Assembly: GCA_903827245.1 (NCBI GenBank)
Contig: CAIKHO010000073.1
Coordinates: 1 to 52,181 of the forward strand
Direction of reading: 5' to 3'
From: an uncultured Opitutia bacterium
Lineage (GTDB): Bacteria > Verrucomicrobiota > Verrucomicrobiia > Opitutales > Opitutaceae
Length of the DNA stretch: 52,181 nt
A program made the position numbers and the translations under genes. Shown here piece after piece: positions 1 to 33,641 of this stretch (position 1 is its first letter; each line of letters begins with the position of its first letter). Below the pieces are notes generated by a model. The model was not told where the DNA came from. It saw nothing but the letters and a program-made list of their open reading frames with translations, and made no database searches.

Positions 1-1140
1 CGAGGCGCGGATCAGCAGCGACTTGCTGCCGCCGCTCATGATGAAGCCCACGGTGAGCGACTGCCCGTTGATGCCCGCGGGAGCTCGCACCGAGAGGTTG
101 GCGATTCTGCCGGGGTTGGGAATGTCCACTACGAGCTGTGCCAGACGGCTCGTGGTGGGACTGCCGGAGGTGGTCACCACCACCGTGTAGTAAGCGGCAT
201 CGCTGGGCTGCAGATTGGCCAGGGTCAGGGTGTTGGCGGTGGCGCCGGCGATCGCGGTGCCGTTCTTCAGCCACTGGTAGGTGAGGCTGGCACCAGTCGC
301 GGCGACACTGAAGGTGACCGAGCCGCCCGGGGCCACGGTCTGGCTGACCGGCTGGACGGTGATGACGGGTGCGGCCGCAAGGGGGGTGGTGACGGTGAGC
401 ACCGCGTTGCTGCTGGTCGTGGAGCTGACGCTGTTGGTCACGACGACCGCGTAGGTTCCGGCATTGCCGAGTTTGACCGGCGAAAAAGTGAGCGATGCGC
501 CGGTCGCACCGTTGATCGCGACGCCATCCTTCAGCCATTGGTAGGTGGGGGCGGGAGAGCCTGACGCCGTCACGCTGAGCGTGACGTTGGAACCGGCATC
601 CACGGTCTGGCTCGCGGGCTGCGAAACAATTGCGGGCGCGGTGCCGGAGTTGCCGACCACGGTGAGGGAGGTTGAACCGGGAGTGACGCTTCCGGTCCGG
701 TTGGTGTTTTGCCAGGCATCGACGGTGAAGCTGTAGGTGCCGGATTTCGTCGGGGTGCCGGAGATTGTCAGCACGCCCTGGGTGGAGGTCGCATCGTTGA
801 TGATCAGGAGATTTCCCACCAGGCTGGCGCCCTGGGCCGTTAGGCCGGGCGGCAGCGTGTTCGAGAGGTCCCACGATTTTGCAAAGGTCACCGCGGAACC
901 CGTGACAGTCACGTTCATCTTGAACGGTTGTCCCGCGTTGATGGTCGCGGGAAGGGTGATATCCGCCACGAGGATGGCCGTGGAGGAGGACGCCCCGGCG
1001 AGGGAATCAACCACCCCCAGGACCGCGAGCGAAGCAGCCGCCGGGCGGAGGGTCGCCGCCACGGGCGATTCGAGCACGTAGCCGGCCGCGGCTGCGGCGA
1101 TGCGCACGACCGGGGTCCTTTGGCAGATCACGGCGAGCAT
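1..1140 (-). CDS. Ig-like domain secreted/surface protein, C-terminus outside window
   Basis: An open frame of 380 codons runs from ATG at 1140 to the left edge with no stop, so only the N-terminal part is seen. Residues 1-50 are Ala/Val-rich and could hold an export signal, but no clean signal peptide is evident. Residues ~55-160 form a putative-Ig-type domain. Two Ig-like repeats follow, each with the pattern 'sQPasQTVdaGs..tlsVtAsGs..tYQWlKdGvaI.gAt...ltl....AG.Y.VvVtNs'. The last visible part (NPGRIANLSVRAPAG...GFIMSGGSKSLLIRAS) resembles a C-terminal module common in verrucomicrobial Ig proteins, from family memory. The frame stays open upstream (TTG at 1197), so the start is uncertain. 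The role is probably cell-surface adhesion or substrate binding; the ligand is unknown. Confidence 0.75.
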   Translation of the reverse strand, partial: MLAVICQRTPVVRIAAAAAGYVLESPVAATLRPAAASLAVLGVVDSLAGASSSTAILVADITLPATINAGQPFKMNVTVTGSAVTFAKSWDLSNTLPPGLTAQGASLVGNLLIINDATSTQGVLTISGTPTKSGTYSFTVDAWQNTNRTGSVTPGSTSLTVVGNSGTAPAIVSQPASQTVDAGSNVTLSVTASGSPAPTYQWLKDGVAINGATGASLTFSPVKLGNAGTYAVVVTNSVSSTTSSNAVLTVTTPLAAAPVITVQPVSQTVAPGGSVTFSVAATGASLTYQWLKNGTAIAGATANTLTLANLQPSDAAYYTVVVTTSGSPTTSRLAQLVVDIPNPGRIANLSVRAPAGINGQSLTVGFIMSGGSKSLLIRAS

Positions 1141-1217
1141 GGCGGCGGGAACCCGGAAGCGCTCGATGCGGGAGAACTGAAGTAATTTTGAGATCAAGGA
1201 ATGAAGCCGGTTGGCTG

Positions 1218-1252
1218 GCCGGGCATGGTGTCACGCCGATACCACGCCCGGC
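1218..1252. repeat. Hairpin in the divergent gap between the Ig protein and nifJ
   Basis: Arms GCCGGGCATGGT (1218-1229) and ACCACGCCCGGC (1241-1252) pair at 11 of 12 positions around an 11-nt loop. It lies in the 382-bp gap 1141-1522 between divergent genes. No T-run follows, so it is not a simple terminator. I see no convincing sigma-70 promoter in the rest of the gap, although promoters for both genes must lie here. Confidence 0.55.
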
Positions 1253-1522
1253 TTTGCCGAATTTCTGCCGACCCGGGGAAAATCCAGGCGATCGCGGTCG
1301 CACGGCGGCGGACAAGGTTTTTGGACACGTTGAAAGGTCGTTCCGGGACCAAAAGGACCCGCCAGTGTTCCGGAAAGTTGGGATCCTCCGGCGAATCGGC
1401 GCCAAGTACAGGCTTCACTGATCTGCGCGCAACAAAAGGCAAAAGATGCGCAGTCGATTGCCCCGGTTCATGGCAGCATGGGACGGCCCAGTTTGGATGC
1501 CCCTCATTACGAACCTCCGACC

Positions 1523-5100
<3,578 letters not shown>

Positions 5101-5104
<4 letters not shown>

Positions 5105-6093
5105 AACTAGAGACCAGCTATCTCGGGCTGCACCTGCGCAACCCCTTCGTCGTCGGTGCCTCGCCGTTCGGGGACAGCGGGCACGTCGCCCGCCAGCTGC
5201 AGGACGCCGGTGCCGGCGCCATCGTCATGCGGTCGCTCTTCGAGGAGCAGATCGACGCCGAACAACGCGGGCTGAACCACAACGTCGAGTTCGGCGCCGA
5301 GAGCCATGCCGAGGCGACATCGTATTTTCCCCACTTCGCGGAATACCAGCTCACGCCGGACCACTACCTGCGCCAGATCGCTGACCTCAAGGGCACGCTG
5401 ACCATCCCGGTGATTGCCTCGCTGAACGGCTGCCGCCCGGGCGGCTGGACGGATTATGCGGCACGGTTCGAGGCGGCGGGGGCGGACGCGATCGAGCTGA
5501 ACCTCTACCAGCTAGCGGCCGATGGGGAGCGCGACGCCAGCCAGGTGGAGGCGGACATGATCGAGACCGTGAGGCGCGTGACCGGCTCGGTGCGCATTCC
5601 GGTCGCGGTGAAACTCTCGCCCTTCCACACCTCGCCGGTGCAGTTCGCCCTGGCGCTGGAGCAGGCCGGTGCCGCCGGGGTGGTGCTGTTCAACCGCTTT
5701 TACCAGCCGGACTTCGATATCGATGAACTCGAGGTCGTGCCGCGCCTCAACCTATCCGATTCGAGCGAGCTGCTGCTCCGGCTGAGATGGTTGTCGATCA
5801 TCTCCCCGCGCCTGAAGGGCTCGCTCGCGGCCACCGGCGGCGTGCACAACCCGGCGGACATCGTGAAGGCAATCCTGGCCGGGGCCCACGCGGTCCAGCT
5901 GGTCTCGGTGCTGCTGAAGCACGGGCCGCGTTATCTTTCGACGCTGCTCGACGGCGTGCGCCAGTGGATGATCGACCACGACTACAAGAGCGTGGGCGAA
6001 TTCCGCGGGGCCATGAACCTTCGGCGTTGTCCCGACCCGGCGGCCTTCGAGCGCGCCAATTACCAGCGGATCCTGCAGAGCTGGCGCGTGTGA
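5101..6093 (+). CDS. Dihydroorotate dehydrogenase-like flavoprotein
   Basis: 330 residues with the TIM-barrel start typical of class 1 DHOD (MKLETSYLGLHLRNPFVVGASPFG), a central VAVKLSPF segment on beta-strands that bind FMN and substrate, and the FMN-phosphate region SLAATGGVHNPADIVKAILAGAHAVQLVSVLL. No Cys-rich ferredoxin domain follows, unlike PreA-type dihydropyrimidine dehydrogenase subunits. The start overlaps the PFOR stop by 4 bp, and a GltD/PreT-like gene follows 5 bp after the stop. That suggests an electron-transfer role rather than, or besides, pyrimidine synthesis. The DHOD-like fold is secure; the substrate is unknown. Confidence 0.85.
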
Positions 6094-6098
6094 CACGC

Positions 6099-7529
6099 AT
6101 GCATCCCATCAAAATGAAATCTCCAAACCCGCCGCCCGCGAACCCGAAGTACGCTTGGTCGGCCATCACCCGCGAGGTTCCGCCGAAACGCGCGGCGGCC
6201 GAGCGGGTGGGCGACTTCGACGAGATCTATACCCAGTACGACGAGGCGACGGTCCGGGCCCAGGCCAGCCGCTGCATCCAGTGCCCCAACCCGCTGTGCA
6301 TGCAGGGCTGCCCGCTGGCGAACCGCATCCCGGAATGGCTGGCGCTCGCAGCGCAGGGGCAGTTCATCGAGGCAGCCGCGGTGTCGCGCCTGACGAGCAA
6401 TCTGCCGGAAATCTGCTCCCGGGTGTGCCCGCAGGAGCGACTGTGCGAGGGCGCCTGCATTTTGAACACCCGCACCGAGCCGGTCGCCATCGGCGCGGTG
6501 GAGCGTTTCATCAACGATTATGCGCTGGCGCACCATGCGGCGGAGGTCGCACCGGCGCCGTCCAACGGGATCCGGGTCGCGGTGATCGGTTCCGGCCCCG
6601 GCGGTCTCGCATGCGCGGATGAACTCGCCCAGCTCGGCTACGGGGTGACCGTTTTCGAATCGCTGCTCATTCCCGGCGGGCTCCTGGTCAACGGCATCCC
6701 GGCCTTCAAGCTGGAGAAACATATTGTCGAGCGGCGCATCGAGCTCCTGAGCCGCCGCGGCGTGCAGTTCCGCCTCGGGGTGAAGGTGGGCTGGGACGTA
6801 ACCCTGGCCGACCTGCAGCGCGACTATGCCGCGATCTTCCTGGGCATCGGCGCGCAACGCCCGAAGCCGCTCGACCTGCCCGGCGCCGCGCTGACGGGCG
6901 TGGCGGATGCGCTGCCCTTCCTGATCCAGAAGAATGTGGCCTCGCCTTTGGTCGAGGCGGCGCCGATCGACGTGGCCGGTCGCAGCGTGGCAGTACTCGG
7001 TGGCGGCGACACGGCGATGGACTGCCTGCGCACCGCGCTGCGGAGCGGGGCGCGCGAGGCGGTCTGTGTCTATCGCCGCGACTTGGCGAACATGCCCGGC
7101 AGCCGCAAGGAGTACGCCAACGCGCTCGAGGAAGGCGCGCGGTTCGAATTCCTGTGCAATCCGGTCGAGATCATCGCCGGTCCGAATGGAGCCGTGGCCG
7201 GCGTGCGCTGTGTCCGCATGGAGTTGGGCGCGGCGGACAAGTCCGGCCGGCGCCAGCCACGCCCGGTCCCGGGCACGGAATTCGAGGTCCGGGCTGACGT
7301 CCTGCTCGTGGCCTACGGCTTCGATCCCGTGCCGTTCCCGCCGGACAGCGAATTCGCCGCAATCAAGACCGACAAATGGGGCGGTCTGGCCATCGACGAG
7401 AACCAGATGACCAGCCTGCCGGGTGTCTTTGCCGGCGGCGACTCGGTCCGCGGTCCGAGCCTGGTCGTGCACGCGGTGCGCGATGCCCGCAAGGCGGCGC
7501 GCGGCATCCATTGCTACCTGCAACGCTGA
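6099..7529 (+). CDS. GltD/PreT-like NAD(P)-dependent FAD/FeS oxidoreductase
   Basis: 476 residues, as in the glutamate synthase small subunit. The N-terminal cysteines C59xxC62xxxxC67xxxC71P and a second set (CSRVCPQERLCEGAC) should hold two 4Fe-4S clusters. An FAD-binding Rossmann motif, VIGSGPGGLACADELAQLGY, begins near 162. An NAD(P) site, VLGGGDTAMDC, lies near residue 300 and is followed by VYRRD. A C-terminal GVFAGGDSVRGPSLVVHAVRDARKAARGI completes the FAD site. No large GltB subunit is adjacent. The neighbours are a DHOD-like protein and PFOR, so a PreT-like partner passing electrons between NAD(P)H and the flavoprotein, or ferredoxin, is inferred. ATG 6114 is an alternative start. Confidence 0.88.
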   Translation: MHPIKMKSPNPPPANPKYAWSAITREVPPKRAAAERVGDFDEIYTQYDEATVRAQASRCIQCPNPLCMQGCPLANRIPEWLALAAQGQFIEAAAVSRLTSNLPEICSRVCPQERLCEGACILNTRTEPVAIGAVERFINDYALAHHAAEVAPAPSNGIRVAVIGSGPGGLACADELAQLGYGVTVFESLLIPGGLLVNGIPAFKLEKHIVERRIELLSRRGVQFRLGVKVGWDVTLADLQRDYAAIFLGIGAQRPKPLDLPGAALTGVADALPFLIQKNVASPLVEAAPIDVAGRSVAVLGGGDTAMDCLRTALRSGAREAVCVYRRDLANMPGSRKEYANALEEGARFEFLCNPVEIIAGPNGAVAGVRCVRMELGAADKSGRRQPRPVPGTEFEVRADVLLVAYGFDPVPFPPDSEFAAIKTDKWGGLAIDENQMTSLPGVFAGGDSVRGPSLVVHAVRDARKAARGIHCYLQR

Positions 7530-7680: not shown

Positions 7681-9144
7681 TCAAAACAGGCCCAGCAGCG
7701 CCGACGGATTCATTCCGAACCACACGATGAGGGCGGCGGCCGTCACCAGCGCGAGCGTGGCGGCGCGCGGGACCTTGATCGGCGGGGCTCCGTCCGCCGG
7801 GCCGGCGACCAGCGCCTGTTTCAGGACCATCAGGTAGTAATACAGTGCGACGGCGCTGAGCGCGATCGCCAGCACGGCGAGCCCGCCCGCGGGGCTCCGG
7901 ATTCCGCCCGCGTGCAGCGCGGCCGAGAAGACGGTGAGCTTCCCGAAGAAACCCGCGAGCGGGGGAATGCCCGCGAGCGACAGGATGAAAATGGCGAGGC
8001 AACCCGCCAGCAGCGGCGAGCGCCGGTGGAGGCCGGCGAGGTCGGTGATCCGCTCGCAGCGGCCCGCGGTCTCCATCACGGCGATCACGCCGAACGCCCC
8101 GACCGTGGCGAGGCCGTACGTTAGGGCATAATAGAACAGCGGCCCGGGCCCGGCGCTGCCCACGGCGAGCACGCCCAGCAGCAGGGCACCGGCGTGGGCG
8201 ATGGCCGAGTAGGCGAGCAGGCGGCGCAGGCTCGTCTGGGCCAGTGCGGCCACGTTGCCGAGCACCAGCGAGACGGCAGCGAGCGCGGCCACGGCCCGGA
8301 ACCAGCCCGCGCCGCTGTTGAGCCACGTTGCGCTCCCCGCCGCCGCACCGAACGCGGGCCACAACAGGCGGGTGAAGAGTGTGAAACCGGCAAGCTTCGA
8401 GGCGGACGCAATCAGCGCTGCGGATGGTGCCGGTGCGCCTTGGTAAACGTCCGGTGCCCAGAGGTGAAAAGGGGCCGCCGCCACCTTGAAGCCGAAGGCG
8501 ACGAGAACCATTACGAGGCCGACCACGAGCAGCGGGTTCGAGCCCTGCGCGGCGATCTGCCTCGCGATTTCCGTCAGCTCGACCGACCCGGTGGCGCCGT
8601 ACACGAGGCTGAAGCCGAAGAGCAGGAACGCCGCGGCCATGCCGCCGAAGAGGAAATATTTCAAACCGGCCTCGGCGGACTCCGGCCGCGTGCGGTCAAA
8701 GCCGGCCAGCACGTAGAGCGAAAGGCTGGCGAGCTCCAGCGCGAGGAAGGCGAGCAGCAGCTGCTGGGCGGCGGCCATGAGCAGGAGACCGCTCGCGGCC
8801 AGCAGCATGATCGCGACATATTCCGCCGGCTGCCGCCGGGCGGGCGAGCCCTGCGTGATCCCAAAGGTGAGCAGCGTCAACCCGAGCACACCGAGGCGCG
8901 ACGCCATCGCGAGCTGGTCGATTATCAGCACGCCACCGAAGACCGTCCCGGGCTCCGCCCGCCACACCTGGAACCCCGCCGTGAGCAGGGCGAGGCTGCC
9001 GACCCACAGCGCGAGTTGCAGGCGCCCACCCGGCGAGTGGCGGCGGTAGAGCGTCAGGTCGAGTCCGAGCACGAGCAGGGCGCCGAGCACCAGCGAAATC
9101 TCCGGTCGAAGCGCGGAAAAGAGTCCGGCGTAGTCCGGCGTCAC
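7681..9144 (-). CDS. nuoN: NADH-quinone oxidoreductase subunit N
   Basis: 487-residue antiporter-like membrane subunit, the last gene of the complex I operon. GTG at 9144 was chosen because it overlaps the nuoM stop (GTGA) and has GGGAGG a few bases upstream; the longer open frame upstream is nuoM sequence in another frame. The broken-helix Lys is present (FGFKVAAAPFHLWAPDVYQGAPAPSA), as is the second conserved Lys (ASASKLAGF). Thirteen or more hydrophobic segments fit the usual 14-helix fold. It takes part in proton translocation across the cytoplasmic membrane. Confidence 0.96.
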   Translation of the reverse strand: MTPDYAGLFSALRPEISLVLGALLVLGLDLTLYRRHSPGGRLQLALWVGSLALLTAGFQVWRAEPGTVFGGVLIIDQLAMASRLGVLGLTLLTFGITQGSPARRQPAEYVAIMLLAASGLLLMAAAQQLLLAFLALELASLSLYVLAGFDRTRPESAEAGLKYFLFGGMAAAFLLFGFSLVYGATGSVELTEIARQIAAQGSNPLLVVGLVMVLVAFGFKVAAAPFHLWAPDVYQGAPAPSAALIASASKLAGFTLFTRLLWPAFGAAAGSATWLNSGAGWFRAVAALAAVSLVLGNVAALAQTSLRRLLAYSAIAHAGALLLGVLAVGSAGPGPLFYYALTYGLATVGAFGVIAVMETAGRCERITDLAGLHRRSPLLAGCLAIFILSLAGIPPLAGFFGKLTVFSAALHAGGIRSPAGGLAVLAIALSAVALYYYLMVLKQALVAGPADGAPPIKVPRAATLALVTAAALIVWFGMNPSALLGLF

Positions 9145-10667
9145 GGTGCGCCTCCCTTCAGCACCGCTTGCAGCAGCGGCGACTGGAGCGCCGGGTTGAT
9201 CCAGTCGAGCAGAAGGTCCGGCTTCAATCCGACCACCACGGTGGCGCCGACCAGCAGCAATGCGCCGGCTTTTTCCGGCCACGTGATCGGCGAGAGATGC
9301 GGCGCGGAGCCGGCGTGCAGCCCGGGCCCGTCAGTCGCGGAGGCCGATGATGGGCCGGTGGACCCGAAAAACCCGAGCTGGATCGCGCGCAGGGTGAAGG
9401 CCGCGGCGATGAGCACCCCGACGGTGGCGACGGCCGCCCAGAGTGGAGCCGCGGTCCACGTGCCGATCAGGATCGTGAGCTCGGCGGGAAAACCGCTGAA
9501 GCCGGGCAGGCCCATCGAGGCCACGCCGGCAATCACAAACATCGTCGTGGCGAAGGGCACCAGCCGGTAAAGTTTCATCCTGCGCAGGTCGCCGAGCTGC
9601 CGCGTGTGCGTGCGGTCGTAAACCATCCGGCCGACCACGGCGAAGAGCAGCCCGGCGATCACGCCGTGCGAGAACATCTGCAGGACTGCCCCACTGACTG
9701 CGCGAGGGTTGGCCGCCGCCAGGCCGAGCATGACGAAGCCCATGTGGCTCACGCTGGAATAACCGATGACAAATTTCAGGTCCTGCTCCATCAGCGCCAC
9801 AAGCCCGGCGTACACGATGCCGGTCACCGCCAGCCACGCGATGGGCGTCTGCCAGTAAGCGAACGCCACCGGCGAAAGCGGCAGCGCCACGCGCAGGCAG
9901 CCGTAGGCGCCGAGTTTCATCACGACGCCCGCGAGCAGCATCGAGGCCCCGGTCGGGGCGGCGACGTGGCCGGTCGGCGCCCAAGTGTGCAGCGGGAAGA
10001 GGCCGGCAAGCGTGGCAAAGCCGAAGAAGACGAGCGCGAAGACGACGATCTGCCCGGGCCGGGACAGCGTCGCCGCCGCATGGGTGAGCTGGCCGAAGCT
10101 GAAGCCGTGCGCCCCGCCGCAGGCGTAGACCCAGAGTAGTCCGGCGAGCACCATCGCGCTGCCGGCGAAGGAATAGAGCGCGAGCTTCATCGCGCCATAC
10201 TCCCGGTTCGTCGAGCCCCAGGCGGCGATCAGGAAATACTTCGGGACGATTGCGATCTCGTAGAAGACAAAAAACAGCAGGGCATCGGCGCTGAGGAAAA
10301 CACCGTAGACCCCGGCGACGAGAGTGAGGAACAACGCGAAGAACTCGCCGGTGCGCTCCTCGATGTTCCACGAGAACAACACGCCCGCGGTGGACGCGAG
10401 GCCCGTCAGCACCAGCAGCGTGAGGCTGATGCCGTCGACGGCGAGATGGTAGCGCACGCCCATGGCGGGAATCCACGGGACATCGACGAGCGTCTGCAAT
10501 CCGGGTCCGGGAACAAAACGGGTCGCGGCGAGCAGGGTCAGGATCCAAGTGCCCGCGGCGGTCAGGAGTGCAATCCATCGCGCGGTGCCGGCCGAGCGCC
10601 GTCCGCCCGCCAGTGCGAGCAGCGCGCCGGCCATTGTCAGGTAGATGCTCCAGGGCAGCAGGTTCAT
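9141..10667 (-). CDS. nuoM: NADH-quinone oxidoreductase subunit M, divergent paralogue (first NuoM)
   Basis: 508 residues. ATG 10667 overlaps the upstream nuoM2 stop (ATGA). The TM5 Glu is present (FYE137IAIVPKYF), as are the second Lys (VVMK251LGAYG) and the late-helix Glu (GFSGFPAEL). The Lys expected before the PLHxW motif is replaced by Leu220 (GFATLAGLFPLHTW), and the usual LPDAH is APTGH. The neighbouring NuoM has the Lys. This is therefore a divergent antiporter-like subunit whose proton path may be altered. It is not a pseudogene: it is intact and coupled to both neighbours. Confidence 0.93.
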   Translation of the reverse strand: MNLLPWSIYLTMAGALLALAGGRRSAGTARWIALLTAAGTWILTLLAATRFVPGPGLQTLVDVPWIPAMGVRYHLAVDGISLTLLVLTGLASTAGVLFSWNIEERTGEFFALFLTLVAGVYGVFLSADALLFFVFYEIAIVPKYFLIAAWGSTNREYGAMKLALYSFAGSAMVLAGLLWVYACGGAHGFSFGQLTHAAATLSRPGQIVVFALVFFGFATLAGLFPLHTWAPTGHVAAPTGASMLLAGVVMKLGAYGCLRVALPLSPVAFAYWQTPIAWLAVTGIVYAGLVALMEQDLKFVIGYSSVSHMGFVMLGLAAANPRAVSGAVLQMFSHGVIAGLLFAVVGRMVYDRTHTRQLGDLRRMKLYRLVPFATTMFVIAGVASMGLPGFSGFPAELTILIGTWTAAPLWAAVATVGVLIAAAFTLRAIQLGFFGSTGPSSASATDGPGLHAGSAPHLSPITWPEKAGALLLVGATVVVGLKPDLLLDWINPALQSPLLQAVLKGGAP

Positions 10668-12205
10668 GGCAGCACCAGGTGGTTGGCCCACGACGTGATC
10701 AGCGGGTTGAACAGTCCGGTCAGCAGGTGCGGCAGCACGCCGAGGAGGAACATCAGGGCCACGAGCGGGACGAGTACGGCGAAATCGAGTCCGGAGAGGT
10801 CGGCGAACGGACCCGCCGCCGCGCCGGCGCGCGGACCATGGAAGACGCGCTGCCAGAACGTGAGCAGGAACCAGGCGGTGGCGAAGAGCCCGAGGCAGGC
10901 GACCGCCGCCGCCCATGGCGCCAGGCCCCATACGCCGCGGAAGATCAGGAATTCGCCCACGAAGCCATTGAGTCCGGGCAGGCCGAGCGACGCGAACAGT
11001 GCGATGCCGCACAGGCCGGCGAACACCGGCGCCGCCGAACGCACGCCACCGAAATCATTGAGCCCGCGGCGGCCACCCGCGCGCGATTCGAGCACGCCCG
11101 CACAGTAGAAGAGCGCCGCGGCGGAAATGCCGTGGTTGAAGACTTGCAGGAGGGTGCCGCTCAAAGCCGCGGCCGCGGCCTCGCTCGCGGGCCGCGAACT
11201 CCCGGTCGCCACGGACACCGCGAAGAGAGCAAGCAGGCAGTAACTGAGGTGGTTGACCGACGAGTAGGCGATCATGCGCTTCAGGTCGGTCTGCCGCATC
11301 GCCGCGAAAGCGCCCAGCACGACTCCGCCGAGGGCAAACCAGAGCAGCGGCCCGGCCGCGGCATGCAGGGGCCCGGGGAAGAGCGGCCAGAGCACGCGGA
11401 TGAAGCCATAGACGCCCATCTTCGACATCACGCCCGTGAGGAACATCGAGACACCGGTCGGCGCCTCGGCGTACGTGGCCGGCAGCCAGGTATGGAAGGG
11501 GAAAAGCGGTACTTTCACCGCGAACCCGAGGAACACCCCGAGGAAGACCGCCTGCGGCCAGATTCCGCCGAGGGAGGCCAGCTTGCCCCCGAGCGCGCCA
11601 GTCGCACCAAGCGAGCTGAGTTCGACGAAATCGAGCGAGCCGGTGGCCGCGAAGATCGCGGCGAAGCCGAGCAGCAGGAACGCGCTGCCGCCGATGGTGT
11701 AGATCACGAACTGGTAGCCCGCGCGAGCCGCGCCGGGGCCGCCCCAGAGCCGGATCAGGAAATAGGCGGGAATGAGGCTCAGCTCCCAGAAGATGAACCA
11801 GTGGAAGAAATCCAGCGCGAGGAAGACGCCGAGCGCGGCACCCTGCAGGAGGAGGAAGAGGAGGCCGAAGAAGCGGGCCTCGGCCACCGTCCGCCACGAC
11901 GCGAGCAGGCAGAGGGGCGACAGCAGCCCGGTCAGCAGCACCAGCAGCAGGCTCAGCCCGTCGAGCCCGAGGTGGTAATGGACATGCAACGCACGGATCC
12001 AGTCATGACGCTCGACGAACTGGTAGCCGGTCGTTGCCGGGTCGAACGAGCCCAGTGCCGCGAGCGTGAGGGCGAGGGTCGAGAGACTGAAGCCCAGCGC
12101 GAGCGCCCGGCTGGCGGGCGCGCCCAAGCGCGGGAGACAGGCGAGGAGGACCGCCCCGGCCCACGGGACAAAAATGATGAGTGACAGCAGGGGCAGCGCG
12201 TTCAT
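10664..12205 (-). CDS. nuoM: NADH-quinone oxidoreductase subunit M, canonical paralogue (second NuoM)
   Basis: 513 residues. ATG 12205 overlaps the nuoL stop (ATGA). Canonical antiporter residues are visible: Glu141 in FIFWELSLIPAYFLI, Lys231 in FAVKVPLFPFHTWLPATYAEAPTGVS, and the Glu in LPGLNGFVGEFLIFRG. It follows nuoL directly, as NuoM normally does, and is followed by the divergent NuoM and NuoN, giving one more antiporter-like subunit than a standard complex I. Its similarity to the next gene is only at the family level, so this is not a recent duplication. Confidence 0.95.
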   Translation of the reverse strand: MNALPLLSLIIFVPWAGAVLLACLPRLGAPASRALALGFSLSTLALTLAALGSFDPATTGYQFVERHDWIRALHVHYHLGLDGLSLLLVLLTGLLSPLCLLASWRTVAEARFFGLLFLLLQGAALGVFLALDFFHWFIFWELSLIPAYFLIRLWGGPGAARAGYQFVIYTIGGSAFLLLGFAAIFAATGSLDFVELSSLGATGALGGKLASLGGIWPQAVFLGVFLGFAVKVPLFPFHTWLPATYAEAPTGVSMFLTGVMSKMGVYGFIRVLWPLFPGPLHAAAGPLLWFALGGVVLGAFAAMRQTDLKRMIAYSSVNHLSYCLLALFAVSVATGSSRPASEAAAAALSGTLLQVFNHGISAAALFYCAGVLESRAGGRRGLNDFGGVRSAAPVFAGLCGIALFASLGLPGLNGFVGEFLIFRGVWGLAPWAAAVACLGLFATAWFLLTFWQRVFHGPRAGAAAGPFADLSGLDFAVLVPLVALMFLLGVLPHLLTGLFNPLITSWANHLVLP

Positions 12206-14223
12206 CGCACGCCTCCCAAAAGGACGAGGAGCGCCAGTGCGACGAAGGCAATGGCCAGTGTGCGCAAATACCCGTGGGTTTCGCCTGTCTGGGCCCGGGA
12301 ATAGGCGCGACCCGTGCGGCGAATGTCCTCGCTCGCGGCGTTGAAGCCGCCGTTGAGGGCGCCGTCGTCGAACTCGCTGTTCACGACGCCCGTGAACTCC
12401 GCGAAGCGCGCCAGAAAGCCCACCGCGCTGCCCCACACGCGGCGGTCGAGGAAGTCCGCCAGCGCGGCGACAAAGGCGTTGAGGCGCACTAGTGTGGCGG
12501 CATAGAGCGAATCAAATTTCATCCGGTCGCCAAGGAAGGCCCACGTCCGGGGTGCGGCCGCTGCGAGCGGGTCGGGCGCGGTGGCGGTGAGTCGCACGCG
12601 CCGTCCGTAGAGGGCCCAGCCGGCGCCGAGACCGAGGGCGACCAGCACGATCGAGAGGCCCATGAGGCCTCCGCCTTCGAGCAGCGGGCGGGCGGGAATC
12701 GGCGTGCCGGTGAGCCGGGACTGCAGCCACGGCCAAACGGGTGTGCCGAGAAAACCCAGCGCCACGGCGCCGATCGCCAGCACCGCGAGTGGGATGGTCA
12801 TCACCCGGGGACTCTCGTGGGCATGCGCGGCCGCGGGGGAACGCGGTGCGCCGCGGAAGACTTCGCACAGCAGGCGTGTCATGTAGAAGGCCGTGAGCAC
12901 CACGCCGATAAGGGTGGCATAGAATGGCAGGTGGGAAACGTCCCACTCTGACGCGGCGTGGAGGATGGCCTCCTTGCTCCAGAAGCCGGAGAACACGAAG
13001 GGCACGCCGGCGAGCGCCATCATGCCGACCGCAAAGGTGACAAACGTTGTCCGCATCGACCGGCTCAGTCCGCCGAGCCGGCGGATGTCCTGCTCGTGAT
13101 GCGCCGCGTGGATCACCGAGCCGGCGCCGAGGAAGAGCAGGGCCTTGAAGAAGGCGTGGGTGAGGAGATGGAAGATCGCCCCGACCCAGGAGCCGACCCC
13201 GAGCGCGAGCATCATGTAGCCGAGCTGGCTGACGGTGGAGAACGCGAGGACGCGTTTCAGGTCGTCCTGCGCCACGGCGATGACCGCGCCGAGGAGCGCG
13301 GTGATCGCGCCGATCGCCGCCACGACGGTGAGCGCGTGGAGCGGCCCGGCCGCCAGCACCTGGTCGGCCGCAAACAGGGGAAAGACGCGGGCGACGAGGA
13401 AGACACCGGCCGCGACCATGGTGGCGGCGTGGATGAGCGCACTGACGGGCGTCGGGCCCTCCATCGCGTCGGGCAGCCAGACATGCAAAGGAAACTGGCC
13501 CGATTTTCCGGCCGCGCCGCAAAAGATCAGCAGGCTGATCGCGGTCGGGACGGCGAGTCCGCTGGCGAGCACCTGGGTGGCGAGATCGCCGAGGACGCCG
13601 GACTCGAGCACGCCATGGCCGCCGTCGAAGAGCAGCAGCGAGCCGGTGGCATCGTAGAGCCAGACGAGCCCGAGCAGGAAACCAAGGTCGCCGATGCGGG
13701 TCGTGAGAAAAGCCTTCTTCGCGGCGGCGGCGGCCGCCGGCTTGTGAAACCAGAAGCCGATCAGCAGGTACGAGGCCACGCCGACGAGTTCCCAGCTGAT
13801 GAAGAGCAGCAGCAGGCTGTTGGCGACGATCACGCCGAGCATCGCCGCGGCGAAAAGGCTGAGGAAGCAGAAGAACTGCTTGAAGTTCGCATCCTCCTTC
13901 ATGTACCCGAGGCTGAAGATGAAGATCAGCAGGCTGACGAACGTGACCATCACGCACATGAACGCATTGAGCGGGTCGAGCAGCCACCCGAGCCGCACCG
14001 CGCCGTCGCCGAGCTCAAACCACGTGAAATTCGCGTAGAGGTGCGCGGCCGGATCCGCGAGGGCGCGTTGCAGGGCGAGGCACGACAGCAGGAATGCACC
14101 CGCCATAGCCGCGATCGCGGCGCCGGAGGCGAGACGCCGTCCGCTCCGGGGCGTGAGCGCCCCGATCCCGGCCGCGAGGAGCGGCAGGGCGGGGATGAGC
14201 CAGAGATGGGCGGCGTCGATCAT
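12202..14223 (-). CDS. nuoL: NADH-quinone oxidoreductase subunit L with enlarged lateral helix
   Basis: 673 residues, about 60 longer than E. coli NuoL. Proton-channel residues are present: Glu145 in FISWELVGVASYLLIGFW and Lys240 in CGAAGKSGQFPLHVWLPDAMEGPTPVSALIHAATMVAAG. The C-terminal lateral helix starts at FDSLY (residue 570). About 78 residues separate this from the QTG motif before the last membrane helix, against roughly 50-55 in ordinary NuoL by my recollection. Such an extension is expected when a further antiporter-like subunit must be spanned. The start ATG lies 7 bp after the nuoK stop. Confidence 0.96.
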   Translation of the reverse strand: MIDAAHLWLIPALPLLAAGIGALTPRSGRRLASGAAIAAMAGAFLLSCLALQRALADPAAHLYANFTWFELGDGAVRLGWLLDPLNAFMCVMVTFVSLLIFIFSLGYMKEDANFKQFFCFLSLFAAAMLGVIVANSLLLLFISWELVGVASYLLIGFWFHKPAAAAAAKKAFLTTRIGDLGFLLGLVWLYDATGSLLLFDGGHGVLESGVLGDLATQVLASGLAVPTAISLLIFCGAAGKSGQFPLHVWLPDAMEGPTPVSALIHAATMVAAGVFLVARVFPLFAADQVLAAGPLHALTVVAAIGAITALLGAVIAVAQDDLKRVLAFSTVSQLGYMMLALGVGSWVGAIFHLLTHAFFKALLFLGAGSVIHAAHHEQDIRRLGGLSRSMRTTFVTFAVGMMALAGVPFVFSGFWSKEAILHAASEWDVSHLPFYATLIGVVLTAFYMTRLLCEVFRGAPRSPAAAHAHESPRVMTIPLAVLAIGAVALGFLGTPVWPWLQSRLTGTPIPARPLLEGGGLMGLSIVLVALGLGAGWALYGRRVRLTATAPDPLAAAAPRTWAFLGDRMKFDSLYAATLVRLNAFVAALADFLDRRVWGSAVGFLARFAEFTGVVNSEFDDGALNGGFNAASEDIRRTGRAYSRAQTGETHGYLRTLAIAFVALALLVLLGGVR

Positions 14224-14230: not shown

Positions 14231-14542
14231 TCACCCTTTCAGGCGCGTCGCCTCCTGGAGCCGGATGCTGCGCTGGTGCCGGTGGATCGCGATGACCAGC
14301 GCGAGTCCCACCGCCGTTTCGGCGGCCGTGACGGCGATCGAGAAGATGACAAAGATGACCCCGGTGGCGGGCGCGCTGGCGGGACCGTAGCGCCAGAAGG
14401 CGATGAAGTTCAGGTTGGCGGCGTTCAGCATCAGCTCGATGCCGAGCAGCACGAGGATGGCGTTGCTGCGGGCGAGCGCACCCGCCAGGCCGACGGAAAA
14501 CAGGACCCCCGAAAAAATGAGGCAGAACTGGAGCGGACTCAC
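14231..14542 (-). CDS. nuoK: NADH-quinone oxidoreductase subunit K
   Basis: 103 residues with three membrane segments, the normal size. GTG 14542 overlaps the nuoJ stop (GTGA). The conserved membrane acidic residues are present in LVLLGIELMLNAANLNFIAF and IFSIAVTAAETAVGLALVIAI, the two Glu that link the hydrophilic arm to the antiporter-like subunits. The longer upstream frame belongs to nuoJ. Confidence 0.95.
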   Translation of the reverse strand: MSPLQFCLIFSGVLFSVGLAGALARSNAILVLLGIELMLNAANLNFIAFWRYGPASAPATGVIFVIFSIAVTAAETAVGLALVIAIHRHQRSIRLQEATRLKG

Positions 14543-15054
14543 GGATTGTCCTCCGGTTGGCCGGTCCGGTCGCCGGCGGCGAGCACCACGGCGCCGATGA
14601 GGGCGACGGTGAGCAGCACGCCCACCGCAAGCAGGGCCGCAGCGTAGGGCCCCATGAGCTCGGCGCCGAGCTGGCGCACGGTGACGGCCGGCGCGGGACC
14701 CGGGGAGGCCGCAAGGGGCGAGCGGAGGATGGCCCCGACCAGCACGCCGGCCACGGCCGCGGCGGCCATGACGGCCGAGAGGGCGCGGCTTTGCCCTGCC
14801 GGGCCGGGTGCGGCCTCGTCCCGCGAGCGGCGGGTGAGCAGCACGGCGAAGAGCACGACCATCGAGATGGCGCCGACATAGACCAGCACCTGGGCAAACG
14901 CGGCGAACTCCGCGCCCGCCCAGAGGTAGAACGCAGCCACGCCCGTCCACGCGAGGGCGAGCAGGAGCACGCTGTGCAGCAGGTTGCGCCCGGCCATGGC
15001 CGCGATCGCGGTGCCGACCGTCACGAGCGCGATGAGGATGAGGACGGCGTTCAT
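14539..15054 (-). CDS. nuoJ: NADH-quinone oxidoreductase subunit J
   Basis: 171 residues and five predicted membrane segments. ATG 15054 overlaps the nuoH stop (ATGA). The signature FAQVLVYVGAISMVVLFAVLL is present; it contains the TM3 segment whose pi-bulge rearrangement is part of coupling in known structures. The C-terminus is hydrophobic and ends just inside nuoK. Confidence 0.94.
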   Translation of the reverse strand: MNAVLILIALVTVGTAIAAMAGRNLLHSVLLLALAWTGVAAFYLWAGAEFAAFAQVLVYVGAISMVVLFAVLLTRRSRDEAAPGPAGQSRALSAVMAAAAVAGVLVGAILRSPLAASPGPAPAVTVRQLGAELMGPYAAALLAVGVLLTVALIGAVVLAAGDRTGQPEDNP

Positions 15055-16256
15055 GCGTAGCGGTAGGTTCGGGGCCCGAGTCCGGCCGTCAGGCCGCGGC
15101 CGAGCAGAAGGAACGGCCCGGCCACGAGGACGAGCGCGACGGCCCACCGCAGCAACTGGAGCGGACCCGACCAGGCGGAGGTGAGCGACCAGAAGGCGGC
15201 GGTGCCGAGATTGACGAGCGCGAGCGGCACGAGGAATTTCCAGGCGAGGCGGGTGAGCTGGTCGATGCGGAGGCGCGGCAGCGTTGCGCGGATCCAGATG
15301 AAGCCGAGGAGGAGCGTGAGGAGCTTGCCCGCAAACCAGACGTACGAAGGGATGAACTCGAGCACGGGCAGCGGCGCCTGCCAGCCGCCGAGAAAAAGGG
15401 TGACGGCCATCCCACTCAGCGCGCACATCCCGAAATACTCGGCCATGAAGAAGAGAGCGTACTTGAAGCCGGAGTATTCCGTGAGGTGCCCGGCGATCAG
15501 TTCGCTCTCGGCCTCGGGCAGGTCAAAGGGCGAGCGGTTGGACTCGGCGAGGGCGGAGACCATGAAGATGGCGAAGCCGGCCGCGCCCCACGGGGTGAAG
15601 ACGATCCAATGGGGGATGAGGTGCCACTTCCAGCCGCCCTGCGCCGCGACAATGCCGGTGGTCGAGAGGGTCCCGGTGGCCAGGACGACGGGCACAAAGG
15701 AGAGCAGCAGGGGCAGCTCATAGCTGATCAGCTGGGCGAGCGCGCGCATGGCGGCGAGGAGGGCGTACTTGTTGTGACTGGCCCAGCCGGCCATGAAGAT
15801 GGCGAGCTCGGTCGCCGCGCCGGCCGCAAAGAAGTACAGGACGGCGGAGTCGAGTTCGACCGGCACGAGGTGGCGGCCATAGGGGATCACGGCGAACGTG
15901 AGGATCGAAAGCGCCAGCAGGGTGACGGGCGCGAGAAAGTGCAGCAGCTGGTCGGCGGCGCGCGGGACGATGTCCTCCTTGGTGAGCATCTTGATGCCGT
16001 CGGCAAACGGCTGGAGCAGGCCGAACCAGCCGGTGCGGTTCGGGCCGGGGCGGTTCTGGACCCGGCCGAGGATCTTCCGCTCTGCGAGGGTGAGGAACGC
16101 GAAGAGCAGGCCGAACACCGCGAGCACTGCGACGATGGAAAGGAGGCTGTTCGCCAGCCAGCGGGCCGGTTCCGGCAGGAAGCCCGTGACCGCGTCGCGC
16201 AGCAGCAGCGGGGCGCGTTCGAGGAAGGATTCGCTGGTCGTGGCGGCGGCGCTCAT
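15051..16256 (-). CDS. nuoH: NADH-quinone oxidoreductase subunit H
   Basis: 401-residue membrane subunit forming the quinone-binding chamber with NuoB and NuoD. Signatures are AERKILGRVQNRPGPNRTGWFGLLQPFADGIK near the N-terminus and AESNRSPFDLPEAESELIAGHLTEYSGFKYALFFMAEY in the centre. These carry the acidic residues of the E-channel. It is somewhat longer than E. coli NuoH (325) because of N- and C-terminal extensions. The start overlaps the nuoI stop (ATGA). Confidence 0.96.
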   Translation of the reverse strand: MSAAATTSESFLERAPLLLRDAVTGFLPEPARWLANSLLSIVAVLAVFGLLFAFLTLAERKILGRVQNRPGPNRTGWFGLLQPFADGIKMLTKEDIVPRAADQLLHFLAPVTLLALSILTFAVIPYGRHLVPVELDSAVLYFFAAGAATELAIFMAGWASHNKYALLAAMRALAQLISYELPLLLSFVPVVLATGTLSTTGIVAAQGGWKWHLIPHWIVFTPWGAAGFAIFMVSALAESNRSPFDLPEAESELIAGHLTEYSGFKYALFFMAEYFGMCALSGMAVTLFLGGWQAPLPVLEFIPSYVWFAGKLLTLLLGFIWIRATLPRLRIDQLTRLAWKFLVPLALVNLGTAAFWSLTSAWSGPLQLLRWAVALVLVAGPFLLLGRGLTAGLGPRTYRYA

Positions 16257-16900
16257 GCAGCGGGAGGGACGGGGGGAGGAAGCGGCACTACCGCCGGAGG
16301 CGGTGGCGGGACGGCCGGCGGCTTGGCTGCGGCTGCGGCCTTGGCGGCAGCCGCGGCCCTGGCCTTTTCCTCGGCGGCTTTTCTCTCGGTCGCCAGGCGG
16401 TCATCGACTTCGGCGGCCTCGGTGGGATGAAGCTGGTGAAAATAACTGTTGGGCTTGGCCAGCGCGTGCCGATCGAGCATGAGGCCGGTGAAGCGGTCGG
16501 TCGCCGCGAGCTCGAACACCTGGTCCATCTTGATCGCGTCGAACGGGCAGACCTCGACGCAGATCTGGCAGCTCATGCAGACCGCCGTGTCGATGTCGAA
16601 GACCGCCGGGTAGATCTGCTGCTTGCCGCTGGCGTCGGGCTTCTTGTCCTTGCTCTTCTCGATGTAAATGCACTGCGGCGGGCATTCCTTCTCGCAGATC
16701 TGGCAGGCGACGCAGCGCAGCGTGCCCATGGGGTCCTCGGCGTTTTCGCTGACGAGGAAGGGAAAGTTGCGGTAGGCCTCGGGCAGCCTCGTCTTTTCCT
16801 CCGGGTACTGTGTGGTCACGAACCGCTTCGGATCGTGGAAGCTGCCCACGAAATTTTTGGCGGTGACCGCGAGACCTTGGAGTAAGCCGGAGCCGAGCAT
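16253..16900 (-). CDS. nuoI: NADH-quinone oxidoreductase subunit I (two 4Fe-4S) with Ala/Pro tail
   Basis: 215 residues. Two ferredoxin-type motifs, C63xxC66xxC69xxxC73P and C108xxC111xxC114xxxC118P, hold clusters N6a and N6b, which relay electrons towards NuoB. From about residue 172 a low-complexity tail rich in Ala, Lys and then Pro (PPAVPPPPPAVVPLPPPVPPAA) extends past the normal C-terminus. It follows nuoD after a 151-bp gap; in a complete operon nuoE, nuoF and nuoG would lie between them. Confidence 0.95.
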   Translation of the reverse strand: MLGSGLLQGLAVTAKNFVGSFHDPKRFVTTQYPEEKTRLPEAYRNFPFLVSENAEDPMGTLRCVACQICEKECPPQCIYIEKSKDKKPDASGKQQIYPAVFDIDTAVCMSCQICVEVCPFDAIKMDQVFELAATDRFTGLMLDRHALAKPNSYFHQLHPTEAAEVDDRLATERKAAEEKARAAAAAKAAAAAKPPAVPPPPPAVVPLPPPVPPAA

Positions 16901-17051: not shown

Positions 17052-18224
17052 CTAGCGGTCGACCTCGCCGAGGACGATGTCGATGCTGCCGAGGATGACG
17101 ACAGCGTCGGCGATCGAGTGGCCGAGGCAGAGGTCCTCGAGGATGGTGAGGTTGATGAGGGAAGGCGGCCGGACGCGGTAGCGGTAGGGATTCGGGCCGC
17201 CCTCGCTGATGAGGTGGAAACCGATCTCGCCCTTCGGGCCCTCGATGCGGCTGTAGACCTCGCCGGGTTTCGGGCGGAAGCCGCGGAGCTTGGCCTTCGG
17301 GTCCATGATGGGACCGGCCGGAATATCGCGCAGCGCCTGCTGGAGGATCCTGATCGACTCGCGCATCTCGAGTACGCGGACCATATAGCGGTCGTAGGTG
17401 TCGCCATGCGCGCCGAGCGGCACGCGGAAGTCGAAGCGCGGGTAAAAACCGTAGCCGTCCACCTTGCGGAGGTCGTAGGCCACGCCGGCGGCGCGGAGCA
17501 GGGGGCCGGTGACACCCGCGCTGACCGCCAGCTTGGCGGAGAGGCAGCCGATGCCCTGGGTGCGGGCCATGAGAATTTCATTGCCGGTGAGCAGCGCCTC
17601 GTACTCGTCGAGGAACGAGCCGTAGCCGTCGGTGAGCGCGCGCGCCGCGTCGAGCCAGCCCGCGGGAGCGTCGACGCGGCAGCCGCCGAAACGCTGGTAG
17701 TTGCACATCATGCGGGAGCCGCTGAGCGACTCGAAGAGGTCGAGGATCTTCTCGCGCTCGCGGAACGCATACATGAGCGGGGTGCCGCTGGCGCCGCAGT
17801 CCTGCAGGAGAAAACCGGCGAGGCAGGTGTGGTTCAGGAGACGGGTGAGCTCGGCGAGGATGACGCGGAGATACTCGGCTCGCTCCGGCACGGCCTGGCC
17901 GGCGAGCTTTTCCACGGCGAGCGCGTAGGCCCAGTTGTTCGTCATCGAGCAGAGGTAGTCGAGCCGGTCGGTATAGGGCATCGAGCCGAGGTAGGACGTG
18001 TTCTCCCCAATCTTCTCGTGGTTGCGATGCAGGTAGCCGAAGACGGGCTTGAGCTTCACGACAGTCTCGCCATCGAGCGTGACCATCATGCGGAAGACGC
18101 CGTGGGTCGACGGATGGTGCGGGCCCATCGAGACCTCGAGCAGGTCGCCGTGGAATTCATCGTGCACGGCACGGACGCTTGCCCCGGGGGCGGCCGAAAG
18201 CGGCGAGGGGTCGGAGAAACTCAT
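17052..18224 (-). CDS. nuoD: NADH-quinone oxidoreductase subunit D
   Basis: 390 residues, homologous to the hydrogenase large subunit. The quinone-site loop [22 protein letters not shown] contains the conserved His pair, and [26 protein letters not shown] and the C-terminal [13 protein letters not shown] are typical. ATG 18224 overlaps the nuoC stop (ATGA); the longer upstream frame lies in nuoC. It forms the Q-module with NuoB and NuoC. Confidence 0.97.
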
Positions 18225-18886
18225 GGCTTCGGCTCCTCCTTGACGACAGCGGGAGCGGGCGTCGGGTAGTGCCTTTTCGCCTTGGCCAGCACGTCGCCAT
18301 GGGGCGTGGGCTCCCACTCGTAGTCGTCGGGCTCGACGTAGTCCTTGCGCATCGGGTGGTCCTTGAATCCGTCCCACATCAGGATGCGCCGGAGGTCGGG
18401 ATGCCCCTCGAACACGACGCCGAAGAGGTCGAACACCTCGCGCTCCTGGAATTCGCAGGCGCGCCAGACCGGCGTGAGCGAGGGCAGGCTGACCTGGTCG
18501 GAGCGGTTGCCCGTGCGGAGGCGGAGGACGACCGGACCGTGCAGCAGGGCGACGGAGTAGAGATGGTAGACCACCTCAAGGCAACCGGGTTGGAGACGCT
18601 TGGTCTTTTGCTCGACCACCTTGGCGGGACCGCCCGCGGGATCGGGCGTGGAAGTCCGGGTGGTCTCGACGATCTCGCGGTCGGGCCAGTCGACGCCGGT
18701 GACATTGGAGCAGAAATCGAGCTGCAGCCCGGGGTCGTCGCGGAGGAACGTCGCGATCGCCCGGGCGTCGGCGGCATCGAGCAGGAGGGAATGCTGCGCG
18801 GCGGGGCCGGGATTGGAGATGAGACTGACGGCGGCCCCGGGAAAACGGCTGAGGAGGCGGTCGCGGATCTGGTCGGGGGTTTCCAT
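18221..18886 (-). CDS. nuoC: NADH-quinone oxidoreductase subunit C
   Basis: 221 residues and not fused to NuoD. The 30-kDa-subunit signature is [44 protein letters not shown], and [12 protein letters not shown] is a typical earlier element. A Pro/Lys-rich C-terminus ends within the nuoD start. The gene begins 12 bp after the nuoB stop. Confidence 0.95.
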
Positions 18887-18898: not shown

Positions 18899-19552
18899 TC
18901 AGGCGCCCTCCTTGCGCACGATCACGGGCGGCTGCCAGACCGCGGGATTCTGCGGTGGCACGAGGTCGTGCTCGCCGAAGTCGGGCACCGGATACTCGCA
19001 GGTCGTGTCCGCCTGCAGATGGCGCGGGGCGCCGGGCCCGGAGATTTTCTGCCCGCGGATTTTTTCCTGCAGCTGCATCAGGCCGTGCAGCAGCGCCTCG
19101 GGCCGCGGGGGGCAGCCGGGGATGTAGATGTCGACGGGGATGAAACGGTCGATCCCCTTGAGTACATTATAGCCCTGCTTGAAGGGCCCGCCGGAGATGG
19201 CGCAGGCGCCCATCGCGATGCAGTATTTCGGCTCGGGCATCTGGTTCCAGAGGCGCACGACCTGGGGGGTCATCTTCTTGGTGACCGTGCCCGACACGAT
19301 GAGCAGGTCCGCCTGACGCGGGGACGGCCGGAACACCTCCGAGCCGAAACGGGCGATGTCGAAGCGCGCCATCGACGCCGCGATCATCTCGATCGCGCAG
19401 CAGGCGAGCCCGAACTGCAGCGGCCACACCGAGTGGCTGCGGCCCCAGTTGTAGAGCTCTTCCATGCTGGTCAGCAGGATGCCCTGTCGGCGCAGTTCGG
19501 CCCGCTCGGCATCCGTCAGGGTCGGGGGGGAGGAAGGCGCGGGCTCGCTCAT
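18899..19552 (-). CDS. nuoB: NADH-quinone oxidoreductase subunit B
   Basis: 217 residues carrying the terminal 4Fe-4S cluster N2. Ligands are the tandem C51-C52 ([10 protein letters not shown]), C117 (MGACAISGG) and C147 ([11 protein letters not shown]). It passes electrons to quinone at the NuoB/NuoD interface. A C-terminal extension of about 45 residues follows the family core ([31 protein letters not shown]), as in many non-proteobacterial NuoB proteins. One base separates it from nuoA. Confidence 0.96.
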
Positions 19553-19553: not shown

Positions 19554-19925
19554 TCATTTCCACTCGAGGTGCCCGCGGTGCCACGCCCAGACGAGACCCT
19601 CGGCGAGCAGCAGGATGAACGCGAGCATCGCGAGGAGCGCGCCCGCCGGCAGGGAGGTGAAGTTGACGGCGAAAGGCAGGAGGAACAGCACTTCGACGTC
19701 GAAGATCAGGAAGAGGATGGCATAGAGATAATAGTGGGCCTTGAACTGGATCCACGAATCGCCCGTCGGCGCGACGCCGCACTCGTAGACGGCGTTCTTG
19801 TCCAGCCCGGGCTTCGCCGGCTGGAAGAACCGGAACCACATCCGCGCGACAGTGAGCATGACCAAGGGGAACGCCACGGCCACGACGGCGAACAGGGTGA
19901 GAAACGCATAGGGGTGCGGGTGCAT
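19554..19925 (-). CDS. nuoA: NADH-quinone oxidoreductase subunit A
   Basis: 123 residues and three membrane segments. The signature [44 protein letters not shown] contains the conserved Cys and the acidic FDVE motif. ATG 19925 ([12 protein letters not shown]) fits the family start better than the longer frame from 19994. It is the first gene of the operon. Confidence 0.95.
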
Positions 19926-19940
19926 GGGACCGACGATGAG

Positions 19941-19970
19941 ACTACAGCAAAGGGGGTGGACTTGGCTCAA
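19941..19970 (-). promoter_or_regulatory. Possible nuo operon promoter
   Basis: On the minus strand TTGAGC (19970-19965) and TGTAGT (19946-19941) are separated by 18 bp and end 16 bp before the nuoA ATG. The match to sigma-70 is moderate. The 341-bp divergent gap 19926-20266 must hold promoters for both nuoA and the SDR gene. It also contains a 7-bp inverted repeat CAGTTTG/CAAACTG near 20134-20166 and A/T-richer stretches, but no gene I can support. Confidence 0.3.
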
Positions 19971-20266
19971 TGCTTCTTGGCAGAAGCTGCGCATTAATTG
20001 CGCCTGGGGATCAGCGGCAATTAAGATGGAACAGCCCGCCGGACGAAGGCGACAGCGAATCGCTGAGAAGATTAATTATTACCGCTTCCTCTCGCCCGAA
20101 GCCAAGGCTCTCAATCGGTGCGGGGTAGTTGGGTCAGTTTGCTGACGCTCCTACATTTTCAAACTGATACACCAAGGCACACGATTACTGCAGATAGGGA
20201 TGGAACCGGCCGACGATTTTGACCTATTGCTATCACCTTTCTTCTGCGGGCGCGTCCCTTACTCCT

Positions 20267-30035: not shown

Positions 30036-30072
30036 AGATGCGTCGGCAATCGGTCAGCCAACCCAAGGCGAA

Positions 30073-30164: not shown

Positions 30165-30216
30165 CCTACTGGAGTTACCGGGCGCAAACTCCAATCGCAG
30201 CTCCTTCCGAACTCGG

Positions 30217-33621: not shown

Positions 33622-33641
33622 TGCAACTGCGTTTTCCGGCT

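Follow-up and report, generated by a model that had tools for sequence, protein, structure and literature searches.

Why would a bacterium that already encodes a canonical NADH-oxidizing complex I carry a second complex I operon, with an extra membrane subunit and without an NADH module? The question is raised by a 52,181-nucleotide stretch of DNA (contig CAIKHO010000073.1 of assembly GCA_903827245.1; "the window") from an uncultured member of the Opitutaceae (Verrucomicrobiota). The source genome is a 3.55 Mb assembly in 91 contigs (completeness 97.4%), of which the window is contig C73. On its minus strand, from 19925 down to 7681, lies a complex I operon with the order nuoA-B-C-D-I-H-J-K-L-Ma-Mb-N, where Ma and Mb are two different NuoM proteins. 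The genes, their order and conservation, the lengthening of NuoL, and the residue pattern of the NuoM proteins are firm. We think it quite likely that the operon encodes a 2M-type complex I with four antiporter-like units, which is probably a ferredoxin:quinone oxidoreductase.

Two NuoM proteins and a longer NuoL

The operon holds an 11-subunit core (NuoA, B, C, D, H, I, J, K, L, M, and N) and a second NuoM, and it encodes four antiporter-like subunits. Ma (10664-12205, 513 amino acids) adjoins NuoL and Mb (9141-10667, 508 amino acids) adjoins NuoN, so the two lie side by side in the order L-M-M-N. Both belong with NuoM: on the TIGR01972 model (NDH_I_M, cut-off 263.8 bits), to which they were compared as longer open reading frames (ORFs), Ma and Mb score 448.8 and 426.5 bits, versus best scores of 145.9 and 154.8 bits on Mrp and hydrogenase-4 models. 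The preliminary description of this DNA placed two adjacent, divergent NuoM genes at 9141-12205, which is exactly the span of both genes, and its count of four antiporter-like subunits instead of three stands, with two bona fide NuoM proteins between NuoL and NuoN. The Ma/Mb junction is ATGA, read directly from the sequence; by coordinates, the L/Ma and Mb/N pairs share 4 bases as well.

Ma and Mb are 35% identical across about 500 aligned positions. We built a tree from 20 Ma, 20 Mb, 11 canonical NuoM from Verrucomicrobia, and five reference sequences, with NuoN as the outgroup; this is a quick method with a long-branch warning, and it samples one phylum and five outside references. Both M proteins fell within the NuoM part of the tree. 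Ma, Mb, and the canonical NuoM each formed one group (support 100), and Mb joined the canonical NuoM of the phylum (support 93, not starred). An approximately unbiased (AU) test rejected Ma and Mb as a sister pair (p-AU = 5.7e-05) and likewise rejected the grouping of Ma with the canonical NuoM (p-AU = 1.4e-05). Because Mb groups with canonical NuoM and the pairing of Ma and Mb is rejected, it appears that two NuoM lineages have been combined. A recent or simple tandem duplication is ruled out by the 35% identity and the AU test, so that the old duplication suggested in the preliminary description was an understatement; judging by these sequences, Ma is no recent copy of Mb. An origin of one NuoM from an Mrp or formate-hydrogenlyase system, which the same description had raised as the alternative, is ruled out by the model scores and the tree. 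Also, the predicted structure of Mb (mean predicted local distance difference test score, pLDDT, of 68.4) resembles NuoM chains such as that of Escherichia coli (3rko; Z 32.1, root-mean-square deviation 2.9, 406 residues aligned).

NuoL (12202-14223, 673 amino acids; 616.7 bits on NF005141, above the cut-off of 556) has a lateral helix that is about 25 residues longer. As a measure, we counted the residues between two anchor residues that bracket this helix. The segment has 80-82 residues in all 102 non-redundant NuoL sequences of the 2M type (81 in 88 of them; median 81), versus 56-57 in the canonical NuoL of the phylum (11/11, median 56), 52 in E. coli, and 57 in Legionella adelaidensis. The canonical NuoL of the same genome (locus L008) has 56. 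NuoL sequences were classed as 2M by the Ma that follows them or by score; Ma comes directly after NuoL in 96 of the 102, and all 96 are long. At 1.5 Å per helical residue, the 25 or so extra residues would span about 37 Å, or roughly one antiporter-like unit. This difference is close to the 26-residue lateral-helix insertion that the distal subunit of Candidatus Manganitrophaceae is reported to have; a similar insertion is said to occur in Nitrospira NuoL (PMC9040806). The 2M NuoL form one clade in a NuoL tree, with weak support (65), and their key residues are kept in 102 or 101 of the 102 rows, the remainder being gaps. The C-terminal part of the window NuoL with the insertion (12205-12537, minus strand) is the first row of a 17-row alignment (A1).

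This arrangement is shared by many relatives. When contigs were scanned with the aligned insertion region of NuoL, 80 of 88 relatives were kept, but the pattern was a single peptide just before the insertion, which favors close relatives. Carriers among the matches include Ereboglobus sp. PH5-10, Geminisphaera colitermitum TAV2, and Verrucomicrobia bacterium IMCC26134. (Two relatives, L062 and L115, are labeled Proteobacteria and look misnamed; the others bear names from the Opitutaceae, the Opitutales, or Verrucomicrobia at large.) A long NuoL is present in 17 of 37 genomes of the same family, this one included, with the other 16 at 65-77% identity, and, among 20 genomes from other families of the order, in one (G043, 48%). 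Among 288 genomes of the phylum, a profile of the insertion region gave strong matches only in the same family and in a second family of the class, f25 (G067 and G210). A profile of Mb is a more sensitive test: of 57 genomes sampled from the class, 25 have an orthologue that scores more than 500 bits, whereas the next match reaches 443 bits, so a complex I with four units and no NADH module would be widespread in the class. The distribution is patchy, as G002, from the same genus and 98% complete, has NuoL and NuoM matches at the canonical level only. In the 17 stretches from the family and order that were fetched first, the run L-Ma-Mb-N is whole in 13 and cut by a contig end in three. As many other genomes share this order, chance is not an issue for the gene pair.

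The remaining genes of the operon, all on the minus strand, are nuoA (19554-19925; PF00507, 1.5e-30 on the ORF 19554-19994, with the start at 19925 set by alignment with relatives), nuoB for the N2 cluster subunit (18899-19552; PF01058, 1.5e-30), nuoC (18221-18886; PF00329, 1.4e-35), nuoD (17052-18224; top NuoD model 445.9 bits on the ORF 17052-18377, start set by alignment), nuoI (16253-16900), nuoH (15051-16256; top NuoH model 317.8 bits), nuoJ (14539-15054; top NuoJ model 90.7 bits, start set by alignment), nuoK (14231-14542; top NuoK model 97.6 bits), and nuoN (7681-9144; TIGR01770, 369 bits, above the cut-off of 332.6). NuoI, encoded ahead of nuoH, has Fer4 domains with two 4Fe-4S motifs and a Pro/Ala-rich tail (TIGR01971, 91.3 bits, below the cut-off of 113.05). 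The window operon contains no nuoE, nuoF, or nuoG, so the genes for the NADH module are missing there, and the only NuoF match in the genome is in a canonical complex I on contig C84 (G000:C84, locus L008), which has E, F, and G and single L, M, and N subunits. The reduced gene set noticed earlier is thus borne out.

A complex I of the 2M type was reportedly described by Chadwick and colleagues in the ISME Journal in 2018. The window has its features: a second NuoM beside the first, between NuoL and NuoN; an insertion of about 26 residues in NuoL; and no NuoE or NuoF in the cluster. The 2M complexes of Nitrospira likewise have a lengthened NuoL and a second NuoM and are without NuoE and NuoF (PMC6606698, PMC8115632), and a further likeness is that the genome also encodes a canonical complex I; the complex of Nitrospira moscoviensis was assigned to clade 3 (PMC6606698). 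However, according to these citing papers the Nitrospira complexes lack NuoE, NuoF, and NuoH, whereas the window operon has NuoH and lacks E, F, and G, and the lineage here is Opitutaceae. Complex_I_3 of Candidatus Manganitrophaceae also has two NuoM and the 26-residue insertion in its distal subunit, but it has two MrpD-like subunits in place of NuoL and five pumps (PMC9040806), while the window encodes a true NuoL. The Anaerolinea-type 2M complex I of Chloroflexi shares the order L-M-M-N, but its nuoBCDI genes lie apart and C and D are fused (PMC7117926), whereas the window operon is one run with separate C and D. Finally, the canonical NADH complex I of the same genome has a homologous core but differs by having E, F, and G, one NuoM, and a NuoL segment of 56 residues. 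A canonical 14-subunit NADH complex I is ruled out by the absence of NuoE, F, and G from the operon, and the rhizobial green complex I, with two MrpD-like subunits for NuoL, is ruled out by the NF005141 score of NuoL. The window thus belongs to a kind of extra-NuoM complex I already described in other phyla, as the preliminary description had supposed, and the known 2M architecture is seen here in a member of the Verrucomicrobiota. In the open-licence literature, we found no paper that brings together Opitutaceae, NuoM, and complex I; one paper mentions Verrucomicrobia along with NuoM, ferredoxin, and complex I.

Lysines of NuoM and the number of pumping units

Does the fourth antiporter-like unit pump? 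In current mechanisms, a lysine in transmembrane helix 7 (TM7) pairs with a glutamate in TM5 in each antiporter-like subunit (PMC10212512, PMC9271201). In a phmmer alignment to E. coli NuoM (3rko), Mb has a leucine opposite the TM7 lysine (K234 in E. coli). This position is lysine in 106 of 107 non-redundant Ma sequences (the lone exception, L227, has a broken reading frame) and in 5/5 references, but leucine in 94/94 non-redundant Mb sequences. It is also leucine in 11 of 12 rows of canonical NuoM from the phylum. (All 11 readable rows have it; the twelfth, L115, has a gap at TM7 and is probably a broken Ma.) Mb has a lysine of its own in TM5, six residues past the catalytic glutamate: the column of E. 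coli Met150 is lysine in 94/94 Mb and never in Ma, canonical NuoM, or references. The TM5 glutamate, TM8 lysine, and TM12 glutamate are kept across the readable rows, except that one reference has aspartate at TM5. In the window, the Mb residues are Glu137, Lys143 (TM5), Leu220 (the TM7 position), Lys251, and Glu396, and Ma retains the TM5 glutamate, TM7 lysine, TM8 lysine, and TM12 glutamate. Owing to Mb, the pair of TM5 glutamate and TM7 lysine is not present in all four antiporter-like subunits. As far as sequences can tell, then, Mb and the canonical NuoM of the phylum depart from the rule of one such pair per subunit.

A side observation is that the canonical NuoM of Verrucomicrobiota with a single M (loci L008, L056, L232-L234, and L239-L244) has a Lys-Lys pair in TM8 as well as missing the TM7 lysine.

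We tentatively suggest, giving it somewhat less than an even chance, that Mb represents a class of NuoM that has lost the TM7 lysine, the supposed gate of each antiporter-like subunit, and gained a TM5 lysine, so that the 2M complex would join two mechanistically different types of NuoM, of which Ma would be lysine-gated and Mb would not. Either protons can be transferred without the TM7 lysine, or the fourth unit relays protons instead of pumping them and the figure of five protons is wrong. If this were true, the canonical complex I of the phylum, whose only NuoM lacks the lysine, would offer a comparable natural experiment. In the open-licence literature, we found no report of a missing TM7 lysine in 2M complexes. 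The invariant lysine changes of Mb bear on the debate over whether each antiporter-like subunit pumps its own proton.

A related possibility is that Mb does not pump at all, and is instead a structural spacer or a proton relay. The four units would then move about four protons per two electrons, and the TM5 lysine would serve for charge balance or as part of a polar axis. The leucine found at TM7 in every Mb fits this idea, as K234 of E. coli NuoM, like E144 and K265, is reported to be essential (PMC5061711). Nevertheless, we consider it rather doubtful because the TM5 glutamate, TM8 lysine, and TM12 glutamate are invariant in Mb (94/94), because the canonical single-M complexes of the phylum, which are presumably working pumps, also lack the TM7 lysine, and because HycC of E. 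coli too has a leucine at the residue that matches K234 (PMC5061711).

Electron donor and direction

Without NuoE, F, and G, the complex would be unable to take NADH by itself. The NDH complexes of cyanobacteria and plants use ferredoxin as the donor. By analogy with them, and because NuoI and NuoB are present while E, F, and G are absent, ferredoxin is the most likely electron donor and would enter at NuoI; the plant complex is described as ferredoxin-fed (PMC12170339). We propose that ferredoxin, reduced by pyruvate or 2-oxoacid:ferredoxin oxidoreductases, would pass electrons to NuoI and from there via NuoB to quinone, driving a membrane arm that is one unit longer. The order of units in the arm would presumably be N-Mb-Ma-L, following the gene order, and the longer lateral helix of NuoL would match about one added antiporter-like unit. 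In a heterotroph, the forward direction, from ferredoxin to quinone, is likely, with more ions pumped per electron pair than NADH would permit. By textbook potentials, the larger redox span between ferredoxin and quinone could pay for a fifth proton. The assembly of such a complex, ferredoxin as its donor, the direction, and the five protons are what we infer from the operon; that Mb would be the unit for the fifth proton is left in doubt by its missing TM7 lysine.

The gene neighborhood ties the operon to ferredoxin metabolism. Beyond nuoN, on the plus strand, lie a convergent gene for a nifJ-type pyruvate:ferredoxin oxidoreductase (PFOR; 1478-5104, 1726 bits on TIGR02176), which is a candidate source of the electrons, and, between it and the operon, a gene for an NAD(P)-linked flavoprotein of the glutamate-synthase small-subunit family (5787-7529; TIGR01318, 498.3 bits, above the cut-off of 482.95). 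The flavoprotein is a neighbor in a relative's locus (L047) too. Among 102 non-redundant 2M loci, 16 have PFOR or a 2-oxoacid:ferredoxin oxidoreductase of the KorAB type within the stretch that was fetched (15/71 for stretches of at least 15 kb). None of the 10 canonical loci has either, a contrast consistent with a ferredoxin:quinone oxidoreductase. In L049, nuoN is followed in the same orientation by a short ORF that matches the Fer4_13 ferredoxin model and by KorA and KorB.

Several observations weigh against a ferredoxin:quinone oxidoreductase with four antiporter-like units. First, as Mb has no TM7 lysine, a fourth pumping unit should not be assumed. Second, the NuoL insertion is an imperfect marker: such insertions are also reported from complexes that have no extra subunits (PMC9040806), and a plasmid of Mycobacterium paragordonae has a cluster with one M that measures 81 by our anchors, which align poorly there; in the two stretches of this plasmid that were read, the annotation shows no additional antiporter gene. 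Third, the helix prediction for the window NuoL is of low confidence: the AlphaFold model (mean pLDDT 69.7) has helices at 571-611 and 617-645, but pLDDT is below 50 over most of residues 565-673. Fourth, the 16 loci with ferredoxin enzymes are interrelated, so they do not count as 16 separate events, and the canonical loci sampled number just 10. Fifth, PFOR is not enriched genome-wide (18/25 genomes with 2M versus 20/32 others, counted by hand). Finally, NuoF is present in all 25 of the 2M genomes in the sample of 57; there is no 2M genome without it among them.

Two lines of evidence were dropped. The predicted structure of NuoL, to which VIA-align rows extend up to about residue 614-618, was not kept as proof of a long lateral helix because pLDDT is too low. 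Similarly, a genome-wide association with PFOR was set aside as evidence for ferredoxin because there is none, and we rely on the gene neighborhood instead. The Mycobacterium paragordonae plasmid (L181) carries a membrane-arm nuo cluster (H, J, K, L-like, M, and N) in which the NuoL-like protein has a long C-terminal segment.

Could the complex instead run in reverse, with the proton motive force driving the reduction of ferredoxin by quinol? This mode has been proposed for the 2M complexes of Nitrospira (PMC6606698), and PFOR and KorAB also serve in reductive carboxylation. It is unlikely here, as the Opitutaceae are known as heterotrophs.

It is still less probable that the 2M core oxidizes NADH with a NuoEFG module borrowed from the canonical complex I. 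Such borrowing would be feasible in all of the 25 2M genomes, given their NuoF. However, there is no match to E, F, or G in the 17 stretches L040-L056 or in the 20 stretches L212-L231 (14 of each set span D to H). The peripheral arms are also divergent: a model of the NuoD encoded here reaches 937 bits on its own sequence but 370 on the canonical locus. The ferredoxin enzymes beside the operon in 16 of the 102 loci argue for ferredoxin rather than NADH as well.

Exceptional gene orders and neighboring genes

The run of L, Ma, Mb, and N is broken in a few relatives. Four genomes of the class have L-Ma and Mb-N at separate places (L168/L235 in G210, L236/L230 in G331, L238/L228 in G340, and L237/L229 in G341). 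In G013, 5.7 kb past NuoL contain no NuoM, Mb is on another contig, and the long NuoL is in two pieces. Although these separations could mean that one NuoM belongs to another complex (Mrp or formate hydrogenlyase) and is a mere neighbor, this is very improbable because the NuoM scores of both M proteins exceed those on any hydrogenase-4 or Mrp model by at least 270 bits, Mb remains with NuoN in the four split genomes, and NuoL is lengthened in 102/102.

The split into L-Ma and Mb-N in those four genomes looks as if the two M genes were parts of two modules. In family f25, A-B-C-D-I is divergent from H-J-K-L-Ma. In G363, no A-D or I gene was found in the 6.5 kb before H. In G043 (L056), the 2M operon adjoins a canonical complex I on the same strand. 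Past KorAB, and in the orientation of the 2M operon, both G022 and G008 have a further complex-I-like cluster (of A, B, C, D, and H type, with I in G022; L048, about 395-4229; L049, about 1-3620; and L175), with L/M/N-like matches nearby.

Elsewhere, the window encodes a 5-oxoprolinase-type trio (CT_C_D, CT_A_B, and LamB_YcsF proteins; 28375-30948) and two long ORFs of 592 and 408 amino acids (31138-32916 and 33564-34790) that have no Pfam match at an E value of 0.001. At 39382-43715 is an efflux pair of the resistance-nodulation-division type, which consists of an HlyD-family membrane fusion protein and an AcrB-like transporter.

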